Source: an uncultured Spirochaetales bacterium (GTDB taxonomy: Bacteria > Spirochaetota > Spirochaetia > Sphaerochaetales > Sphaerochaetaceae). From it: 64,000 nt of DNA. This document shows, piece by piece, positions 38,091-42,567 of the stretch. Within the stretch, counting starts at the first letter, position 1; each line of letters begins with the position of its first letter. The stretch covers positions 1 to 64,000 of the forward strand of contig CASDRU010000009.1 of the NCBI GenBank assembly GCA_949283305.1, read 5' to 3'. The notes under the pieces were generated by a model that ran no database searches, was not told where the DNA came from, and was given only the letters and a program-made list of their open reading frames with translations. Position numbers and translations under genes: made by a program.

Positions 38091-39308
<1,218 letters not shown>

Positions 39309-39328
39309 TCTTGAATCTTGAAGTACTT

Positions 39329-39354
39329 ATGGCGGATTCAGACGAATCCGCCAT
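39329..39354 (+). terminator. Intercistronic hairpin between mglB and mglA
   Basis: ATGGCGGATTC and GAATCCGCCAT form a perfect 11-bp stem with an AGAC loop and no long T run. It resembles the hairpins after the other two binding-protein genes. Confidence 0.75.
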
Positions 39355-39384
39355 TATTCGATTAAATACACGGGAAAAGGACAA

Positions 39385-40881
39385 ATGAGTGGTAAAACTG
39401 TACTAGAAATAAGGAATCTATCTAAATCTTTTGCAAAGAACAAAGTCCTTGACGGTATTAACCTGACTGTAGAAGAAGGAACTGTTTGTGGTCTGATGGG
39501 TGAGAACGGAGCCGGTAAGTCGACCATGATGAAATGCCTTTTCGGCATCTATGCCAAGGATGAAGGGCAGATTCTTCTTTCAGAGACTCCTATAGATTTC
39601 AAGAATCCTAAGGAAGCTCTTGAACATGGTGTTGCGATGGTTCATCAGGAACTCCAGCAGTGCCTTGACCGTACAGTCATGGATAATCTCTTCTTAGGGC
39701 GCTACCCGTTGAAGTTCGGAGTAGTAGATGAGGCAAGGATGCTCAAAGAGAGCAATAACCTCTTTGCCAGACTGAAAATGAATGTTAACCCCCAGACTGT
39801 CATGAGAACAATGAGTGTATCCCAGCGTCAGATGGTTGAGATTGCAAAGGCTGTAAGCTATGATGCAAAGCTGATTGTTCTGGATGAGCCTACAAGCTCT
39901 CTTACAGAAAGGGAAGTAAAGAAACTTTTTTCAATTGTAGATGATCTTAGGAAACAGGGTGTTTCTTTTGTATACATCTCGCACAAAATGGATGAGATCT
40001 TTGAAATCTGTGATGACGTAGCTGTCCTCAGAGATGGAAAGATGATTTTCAAGAAGCATGTAAAAGATACGAACATGAACGAGCTTATATCCGCAATGGT
40101 CGGAAGATCTCTGGATAAGAGATTCCCCGATGTGGATAACAAGCCGGGAGAGGAGTATCTGAAGATAGAAAATCTGAATACAAAGTTTCCTCCAATCCTC
40201 CATGATATCTCATTCTCAGTAAGAAGGGGCGAGATATTCGGACTCTATGGCCTTGTCGGAGCAGGACGAAGCGAGCTCTTAGAGAGCCTTTTTGGAGTCA
40301 GGACGATTGCAAGCGGCAATATAATTGTCGGAGGAAAGAAGCTCAGATTCACATCAAGCCGTGATGCTATGGATCACAGCTTCGCACTTGTAACTGAAGA
40401 GCGAAAGCTTAACGGAATGTTCGGTAAGGACACAATCAAATTCAATACAACGATTACAAACCTTGATGCCTATAAGACAAGAAGGCTGCTGGATGGAAAG
40501 AAGATGGAGGATGCCACCAAGAAGGAAATAAGTGTCATGAACACAAAATGTGTTTCTCCTGACGAGCTTATCTCCTCACTTTCTGGAGGTAACCAGCAGA
40601 AGGTCATCATAGGTAAATGGCTTGAGCGCTCACCTGAGATTTTCCTGCTTGACGAACCGACAAGAGGAATTGATGTCGGAGCCAAGTATGAAATCTATCA
40701 GCTGATAATCAAGATGGCGAAGGAGGGTAAGACAATCATCGTAGTATCCTCAGAAATGCCTGAGATCCTTGGAATCACGAACAGGATTGCAGTCATGTCC
40801 AACCACAGACTTGCAGGAATCGTGAATACAAGCGAGACCAATCAGGAAGAGCTGTTGCGCTTATCAGCAAAATATCTGTAA
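39385..40881 (+). CDS. mglA: Galactose/methylgalactoside ABC transporter ATP-binding protein
   Basis: The 498-residue protein has two nucleotide-binding domains. The first has Walker A GENGAGKST at about residue 40 and LIVLDEPTSSLTE; the second has a degenerate P-loop (GLVGAGRSELLE) and LSGGNQQKVIIGKWLERSPE. The order mglB-mglA-mglC and the MglB-type binding protein identify it as the galactose/glucose system. Confidence 0.94.
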   Translation: MSGKTVLEIRNLSKSFAKNKVLDGINLTVEEGTVCGLMGENGAGKSTMMKCLFGIYAKDEGQILLSETPIDFKNPKEALEHGVAMVHQELQQCLDRTVMDNLFLGRYPLKFGVVDEARMLKESNNLFARLKMNVNPQTVMRTMSVSQRQMVEIAKAVSYDAKLIVLDEPTSSLTEREVKKLFSIVDDLRKQGVSFVYISHKMDEIFEICDDVAVLRDGKMIFKKHVKDTNMNELISAMVGRSLDKRFPDVDNKPGEEYLKIENLNTKFPPILHDISFSVRRGEIFGLYGLVGAGRSELLESLFGVRTIASGNIIVGGKKLRFTSSRDAMDHSFALVTEERKLNGMFGKDTIKFNTTITNLDAYKTRRLLDGKKMEDATKKEISVMNTKCVSPDELISSLSGGNQQKVIIGKWLERSPEIFLLDEPTRGIDVGAKYEIYQLIIKMAKEGKTIIVVSSEMPEILGITNRIAVMSNHRLAGIVNTSETNQEELLRLSAKYL

Positions 40882-40893
40882 GAGGAGGTAAAT

Positions 40894-42567
40894 ATGGCAG
40901 AAAACCAGGTAAAGATAGCTAATCTTGAAGAAGATCTTCAGGTGCAGAAGTATTCAGAACAGCTCAGAGCTCTCCGCCAGGATGGCGTTACTAAGCTTTC
41001 TGACTGCAAGATTGAAAAAGTCACATTAAAGAAGAACAAGCTTGTCCAGGAGGAGGATAAAGCCAGAAGGCTTGCCGAGCTTGATAAGCAGATTGAGGAA
41101 GCTAAGGTGGTTGCTGAGCAGAACAAGGCTCAGGTTGCTGCTTTAAGCAAGGAAGCTGTAGCTTATGTGAACAAGATCTCAAAGGACATTGAGACTGCTG
41201 TCAACGAGAAACAGAACAAGAGAATGAAGGGTGCAAAAGCATTCTATGAAAAGGAAATCGTTGGAATCAAGGCAGATCATGAGAAGAGACTTGTCGAGAT
41301 CAACAGCAAGTATACAGGAGATGAGCTCAAAAGCGAGGTTGCAATCTGCAACTACGAGCTCAAGAGCGCACTCTTTGACTCAAAGAGCCGTTACAAGGAA
41401 CAGCTGGATAAGTGCAAGGCCGCAAAGCATCAGGCATATGTCGATCACGTGCAGAAGAACAGAGAGCTGAGAAACGGTAAGACCAACTTCGTTGAGGACA
41501 TGAAGATGAAGTGGAAGGACTTTGTAAGGAATTTCACTGTCACATCATTCCTTCTTTCAAACGGTCTTTACATCGCGATTTTGATATTCTTCATCGTATG
41601 TGTCATCGTTGCTCCTCTTATCGGATCTGGAAACCTTCTTTCACTTCCGAACATCTTCACAATCTTAGAGCAGAGCTCCACAAGAATGTTCTATGCACTC
41701 GGTGTTGCAGGCCTTATCCTCCTTGCAGGTACGGACCTCTCAATCGGAAGAATGGTCGCACTTGGTGCGCTTACAACAGGTCTCATTCTCCATCCGGGAA
41801 TGAACATCGTATCATTCTTTGGAATGGGTCCATGGGATTTCTCTGCAATGCCTATGCTTGCAAGAGTCATAATGGCACTCGTGCTTTCAGTTGCACTCTG
41901 TGTGATTTTTGCAGCAATTGCAGGATTCTTTACAGCGCGTTTCAAGATGCATCCGTTTATCTCCACAATGGCTAACCAGCTCATAATCTACGGACTGCTG
42001 TTCTATGGAACAAGCGGAACACCGGTTGGATCAATTGACAGCACAATAAAGAATGCAATTGGCGGACGCTGGGTGCTCGGGGTTGTGAACAACCAGTGGA
42101 TCACATTCCCGAAACTGATTATCCCTGCAGTCATTGCAATCATAATTGCATGGCTGATCTGGAACAAGACAACATTCGGAAAGAACATGTATGCTGTCGG
42201 CGGTAATGCTGAGGCTGCAGCTGTATCTGGAATCTCTGTATTCAAAGTAACACTCTGCGTATTCATCATGGCCGGTGTGTTCTATGGCTGCGGTGCATTC
42301 CTTGAGGCATTCAGAGCAAACGCATCTGCCGGTACAGGTCAGGGCTATGAGATGGATGCCATTGCTGCCTGTGTTGTCGGAGGAATCTCGTTCAATGGAG
42401 GTATCGGAAAGATCGGCGGTGCGGCTTTCGGAGTAATCATCTTCACAAGCCTCACATACTGTCTTACATTCCTTGGAATCGATACTAACCTTCAGTTCGT
42501 CTTCAAGGGTCTTATCATTCTTGCAGCAGTATCTCTTGACTCAGTCAAGTATCTCAAGAAGAAATAA
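40894..42567 (+). CDS. mglC: Galactose ABC transporter permease with long coiled-coil N-terminal extension
   Basis: The 557-residue protein is about 220 residues longer than usual MglC. Residues 1-205 are charged and heptad-like (EEDKARRLAELDKQIEEAKV, KAFYEKEIVGIKADHEKRLV) and predict a cytoplasmic coiled coil. The permease proper starts with the first membrane segment at about 222 (GLYIAILIFFIVCVIVAPL) and has CUT2 signatures LILLAGTDLSIGRMVALGA, YAVGGNAEAAAVSGI and IAACVVGGISFNGGIGK. AGAGGAGG precedes the ATG at 40894, and an internal start near the membrane part has no good ribosome-binding site, so the extension is real. Its purpose is unknown. Confidence 0.92.
   Translation: MAENQVKIANLEEDLQVQKYSEQLRALRQDGVTKLSDCKIEKVTLKKNKLVQEEDKARRLAELDKQIEEAKVVAEQNKAQVAALSKEAVAYVNKISKDIETAVNEKQNKRMKGAKAFYEKEIVGIKADHEKRLVEINSKYTGDELKSEVAICNYELKSALFDSKSRYKEQLDKCKAAKHQAYVDHVQKNRELRNGKTNFVEDMKMKWKDFVRNFTVTSFLLSNGLYIAILIFFIVCVIVAPLIGSGNLLSLPNIFTILEQSSTRMFYALGVAGLILLAGTDLSIGRMVALGALTTGLILHPGMNIVSFFGMGPWDFSAMPMLARVIMALVLSVALCVIFAAIAGFFTARFKMHPFISTMANQLIIYGLLFYGTSGTPVGSIDSTIKNAIGGRWVLGVVNNQWITFPKLIIPAVIAIIIAWLIWNKTTFGKNMYAVGGNAEAAAVSGISVFKVTLCVFIMAGVFYGCGAFLEAFRANASAGTGQGYEMDAIAACVVGGISFNGGIGKIGGAAFGVIIFTSLTYCLTFLGIDTNLQFVFKGLIILAAVSLDSVKYLKKK

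Follow-up and report, generated by a model that had tools for sequence, protein, structure and literature searches.

A conserved N-terminal helical domain of spirochaete MglC permeases accompanies circularly permuted MglB

We found that the MglC permease of an uncultured Spirochaetales bacterium carries a genuine, conserved extra domain at its N-terminus, for which we found no prior description in the literature searched. Its sequence distribution suggests that this extension is the constant partner of a circularly permuted MglB, an association that likewise appears to be new, since no earlier description was found. Literature searches returned no paper on extended treponemal MglC, and a term search of PMC4990184 (the paper describing the permuted binding protein TpMglB-2, PDB 5jx2) turned up no mention of an MglC extension. 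The gene lies in a 64,000-nucleotide stretch of contig CASDRU010000009.1, here called the window.

Results

mglC encodes an ordinary permease preceded by an added domain

mglC is the final gene of an mglBAC operon (positions 38091-42567 of the window; Table 1). Its ATG lies 12 bases past the mglA stop codon, AGAGGAGGT precedes this ATG by five bases, and the reading frame is uninterrupted over 557 residues, so the intact frame and strong ribosome-binding site described in the sequence-only reading were borne out. The match to the NCBIfam MglC profile is confined to residues 215-557 (274.6 bits, under the 386-bit equivalog cut-off), and Pfam BPD_transp_2 (PF02653) matches residues 253-545 at 103.4 bits. 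The CUT2 permease that had been placed from about residue 222 is thus present and begins slightly earlier, at about 215 by profile. As had been noted, the region ahead of it is charged (39% K/R/D/E in residues 1-212) and is proline-free. It is also an addition to the usual protein: the compared MglC proteins that lack it are 331-382 residues long and have 1-43 residues ahead of the equivalent of residue 213, and almost all extension-bearing relatives have 180-230. Searches of the extension against Pfam, NCBIfam and PDB sequences revealed no meaningful match. Together, these data indicate that residues 215-557 are an ordinary MglC permease and residues 1-212 an added charged helical domain.

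Table 1 Features of the mglBAC operon and of the MglC extension in the window
Feature	Coordinates	Strand	Basis
mglB, circularly permuted TpMglB-2 type, 405 aa, no lipobox cysteine	38091..39308	+	Colinear with PDB 5jx2 over full length
mglA, double-NBD CUT2 ATPase, 498 aa	39385..40881	+	NCBIfam MglA, 676.8 bits
mglC ribosome-binding site, AGAGGAGGT	40881..40889	+	Sequence; site at the chosen start in 68/76 loci
mglC, 557 aa (extension plus permease)	40894..42567	+	Intact ORF, profile matches
N-terminal extension domain, residues 1-212	40894..41529	+	Conserved in 79 loci and 64/393 genomes; omega ~0.10
Predicted helix A, residues 15-47 (Y20, L24, R28 conserved; K46-K47-N48)	40936..41034	+	AlphaFold2, alignment
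Predicted long helix B, residues 53-139 (87 residues)	41050..41310	+	AlphaFold2
Predicted helix C, residues 142-192	41317..41469	+	AlphaFold2, column entropy
Predicted juxtamembrane helix, residues 199 to about 213	41488..41532	+	AlphaFold2
CUT2 permease domain, residues 215-557	41536..42564	+	NCBIfam MglC and Pfam BPD_transp_2

The extension is translated and under purifying selection

Sequence comparisons indicate that the extension is translated, is under purifying selection and is fixed in length apart from the tip of its predicted hairpin. In close pairs, omega is about 0.10 for the extension, compared with 0.019 for the permease, and a ribosome site accompanies the chosen start in 68/76 loci. 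A full-length counterpart of ~560 residues is present in most genomes of the genus within a set of 60 relatives; the closest named organism, Candidatus Ornithospirochaeta avicola, is 97% identical over the extension and 99% over the whole MglC. The protein could instead be translated from about residue 205, with the upstream frame being noise, and the window does have an ATG at codon 205 with GAGG eight bases upstream. However, an internal start codon with a ribosome site near 203/205 occurs in only 11/79 and 17/79 sequences. We rejected this start because it is kept in a minority of sequences only; the low omega and the conserved length, start and ribosome site of the full-length frame also argue against it, leaving an extension that is not part of the protein with almost no probability.

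The extension is predicted to form a helical hairpin rod

Modeling of the extension alone by AlphaFold2 (71 sequences) yielded a confident prediction (pLDDT 96.2, pTM 0.81). A full-length MglC model (73 sequences; mean pLDDT 73) gave near-identical helices, the first of them broken at 30-31, and predicted the extension better than the permease. Deriving the geometry from helix lengths, the rod would be ~130 Å long, helix C would end about half way along helix B, and E87-N93 would sit close to Q187-G195 and to the place where helix A begins. Within the extension, conservation is strongest in the C-terminal part of helix C and the turn after it (169-197; mean column entropy 1.11, and 1.7-2.1 for helices A and B). 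Insertions and deletions cluster near the N-terminus and at residues 141-150, where a turn connects the long helices, and hardly occur between these two places, which agrees with the predicted hairpin. Covariation inside the extension (Neff 51) did not support the predicted antiparallel pairing.

The earlier description of the region as heptad-like held weakly for the stretch as a whole (hydrophobic periodicity p 0.011, best period 3.75) and did not reach significance in any single predicted helix (3.5-residue periodicity, p 0.07-0.29). Given this weak periodicity and the missing covariation support, the region is better described as a 'helical hairpin rod' than as a 'coiled coil'. A PDB fold search with the extension model gave no significant match (Foldseek best E 0.15), and VIA-align Z scores of at most 9.4 fell in the chance range for helical bundles; a missing fold match does not demonstrate a new fold. 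CUT2 permeases have an N-in topology. Based on this topology, the lack of a signal peptide and a K/R-rich flank before TM1, the extension is presumably cytoplasmic.

Extended MglC is paired with permuted MglB in every operon scored

The window MglB is colinear with TpMglB-2 (5jx2) over its whole mature length (E 2.8e-164) and matches standard enterobacterial MglB in rearranged pieces only, so its circular permutation is the one that PMC4990184 reports for TpMglB-2. Extended MglC occurred with permuted MglB in 84/84 scorable operons and never with standard MglB, while short MglC occurred with standard MglB in 26/26 and never with permuted MglB, the scoring having left aside six extended loci without a readable MglB and one ambiguous short locus. 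No exception to the pairing was seen across two phyla. Because the extension has a single origin in the permease tree (below), these pairings are not independent events, and a single ancestral operon, not functional coupling, may account for the co-occurrence.

The permutation was suggested in PMC4990184 to be perhaps an adaptation to membrane tethering. The signal peptide of the window MglB (38091-38180) has no lipobox cysteine, and only 14/84 permuted MglB proteins have even a loose lipobox motif. With regard to TpMglB-2-type (type Ic) features, the window MglB therefore has the permutation and lacks the lipid tether, a feature of the binding protein that PMC4990184 suggests and that is not strictly defining. 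The rarity of the lipobox makes the MglC extension a better correlate of permuted topology than the lipid-tether idea of 2016.

The extension arose once and is found in two phyla

Searching for the extension in other spirochaete MglC proteins, as the sequence-only reading had proposed, revealed it in 64 of 393 sampled Spirochaetota genomes, each time in frame with an MglC permease; no free-standing copy was found in the 393, all matches being in the permease frame. Extension-bearing loci in named genomes number 79. The extension-bearing genomes belong either to the window's family or to the one containing Treponema-type genomes, and a genome from a third family (G052), found separately from the survey, carries the extension as well. 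Some genomes of the window's own family have a short MglC instead, so MglC type does not simply track host taxonomy.

All MglC proteins at least 57% identical to the window MglC (at least 59% over the match in the full-length survey) carry the extension, and permeases at most 49% identical lack it: their matches begin no earlier than residue 158, and nearly all of them have 304-435 residues. The exception to this threshold is Agathobacter (Bacillota): an MglC of 549 residues encoded on an Agathobacter rectalis plasmid, the sole non-spirochaete example found, is 46% identical overall and yet has an extension homologous over residues 14-210 (E 3e-9). This protein shows that the domain is not a spirochaete-only oddity and either predates the spirochaete families or is more mobile than they are. 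Homologues of Tp0686 are distributed like TpMglB-2, Gram-positives included, for which horizontal sharing has been suggested (PMC4990184). In a permease-domain tree (a quick method, with long branches included), all 82 extended proteins lie on one side of a branch with support 100, indicating that the extension arose on a single branch.

Several loci depart from the common pattern. A Subdoligranulum match that seemed to span the extension is actually a 363-residue MglC without it. A Treponema subgroup (L141:2790-4367, L136:4911-6485, L137:563-2140) encodes MglC proteins of 525-526 residues, with an extension ~31 residues shorter. In one Treponema-type genome, a decaying duplicate (L139:1265-3454) fuses a shortened MglA to a broken permease preceded by the C-terminal part of the extension. 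At L142 (genome G384), mglC is split into frames of 490 and 99 residues, probably through a frameshift or an assembly error.

No chemotaxis receptor or flagellar rod domain was detected in seven genomes of the host family

Mgl-type binding proteins feed chemotaxis in E. coli, and the sequence-only reading had proposed that the extension might anchor MglC to a flagellar or chemotaxis structure. Neither an MCP signalling domain nor a flagellar rod protein was detected in the window's genome, which is 95.7% complete, or in six other genomes of the family, and in the same search four other spirochaete genomes had both domains. An anchor to either machinery is thus refuted for the host organism, within the completeness of its assembly, and we consider it practically out of the question. 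The other roles put forward in the sequence-only reading, regulation of MglA or attachment to a different kind of scaffold, may still apply.

Discussion

Our leading explanation, held with somewhat less than even confidence, is that the extension is an integral helical domain of a distinct glucose/galactose importer type with permuted MglB and extended MglC, serving control or assembly within the importer itself. The model predicts a rigid three-helix rod (15-47, 53-139, 142-192) joined to TM1 through the juxtamembrane helix on the cytoplasmic side, with each importer predicted to bear two such rods. Since helix C leads into the membrane and would end only about half way along helix B, the rod could not stand upright in the cytoplasm and would be expected to run along the membrane or to rest against the MglA ATPase. 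The conserved polar and basic membrane-proximal part (E87-N93, Q180-G195 and Y20-R28 of helix A) may touch MglA or the coupling region, such contact may tune assembly or ATPase activity, perhaps with a cytoplasmic metabolite as the trigger, and the variable hairpin tip may act as a spacer. In structural terms, the most likely place for the modeled arm is on the cytoplasmic face of the transporter, where it would tune MglA.

The MglA partners of extended MglC have fixed differences at K18-N19 (GV in others) and E414-R415 and a one-residue gap near 365; these clade-specific changes are compatible with an MglA contact, are not evidence for it and may reflect plain phylogeny. The shortened extension of T. 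pallidum has lost many conserved residues, so the function is not indispensable in detail. A bolder and rather improbable version makes the extension a new ABC-importer control domain, in which the rod would sense a metabolite in the cytoplasm (such as a sugar phosphate that binds the conserved basic and polar part near the membrane) and set MglA activity, having co-evolved with permuted MglB as an inside-outside regulatory module carried between phyla.

The main rival to importer-internal control is that the rod serves as a docking arm for a cytosolic partner, either a signalling protein or an enzyme such as a glucokinase that phosphorylates the incoming sugar. CUT2 importers deliver unphosphorylated sugar, an 87-residue helix offers a large surface, and the conserved polar and charged residues exceed what helix packing needs, all of which fit recruitment. 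However, the strongest conservation lies at the membrane-proximal end and not at the exposed tip, a pattern that fits contacts within the transporter, with MglA or the coupling region, better than a tip used as a hook, and we regard docking as unlikely, though deserving of serious consideration. The rod shape, together with weak fold resemblances to the APP E2 domain and F-BAR proteins, could alternatively point to clustering or membrane shaping, with rods of neighbouring importers forming arrays as BAR or spectrin rods do. Those resemblances score at chance level for helical proteins, though, the monomer is already predicted with confidence, and weak heptads speak against a long oligomeric coiled coil, making arrays improbable.

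The extension could also be an inherited passenger, gained once with permuted MglB and kept by descent as a structural leader for TM1 folding or insertion with no regulatory role. A single origin, constraint weaker than in the permease and the shortening seen in T. pallidum and in some Treponema (526-residue MglC) are all consistent with this, but strong purifying selection and conservation of specific residues across families and a second phylum make it quite improbable. The extension is a separable domain whose effect on transport could be probed in culturable treponemes or Agathobacter.

Comparison with known systems

Charged N-terminal regions are not confined to this lineage of permeases. 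A CUT2-type permease of 604 residues in the inositol-catabolism cluster of Mesomycoplasma hyopneumoniae (L171:4800-6614) has one of ~285 residues with no detectable sequence relationship to that of the window; it is probably independent, and CUT2 permeases have thus probably gained such extensions more than once. The SPX domains of eukaryotic XPR1 and VTC also place an N-terminal cytosolic helical domain before a transporter; the comparison is architectural only, as the structural score (VIA-align Z 7.8, E 0.08) is not significant and falls among unrelated helical proteins, and there is no sequence or Pfam match.

The standard MglBAC importers of enterobacteria, fusobacteria and other spirochaetes (CUT2) share the permease and ATPase families and the gene order of the window; unlike the window, they have MglB in standard order and an MglC of 331-382 residues without an extension. 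The closest known counterpart is the Treponema pallidum system of TpMglB-2 (Tp0684), Tp0685 and Tp0686, which has the same gene order and a colinear permuted MglB. In a T. pallidum-type genome (G113), MglC has 531 residues and is 57% identical overall to that of the window. Its extension is recognisable and shortened, with the region around the hairpin tip missing, whereas that of the window is full length; T. pallidum MglB is a lipoprotein and the window MglB has no lipobox. The TpMglB-2 system has been proposed as the glucose importer of T. pallidum, an organism whose main source of energy is believed to be glucose (PMC4990184). The MglC extension thus adds a second defining feature to this syphilis-type importer class.
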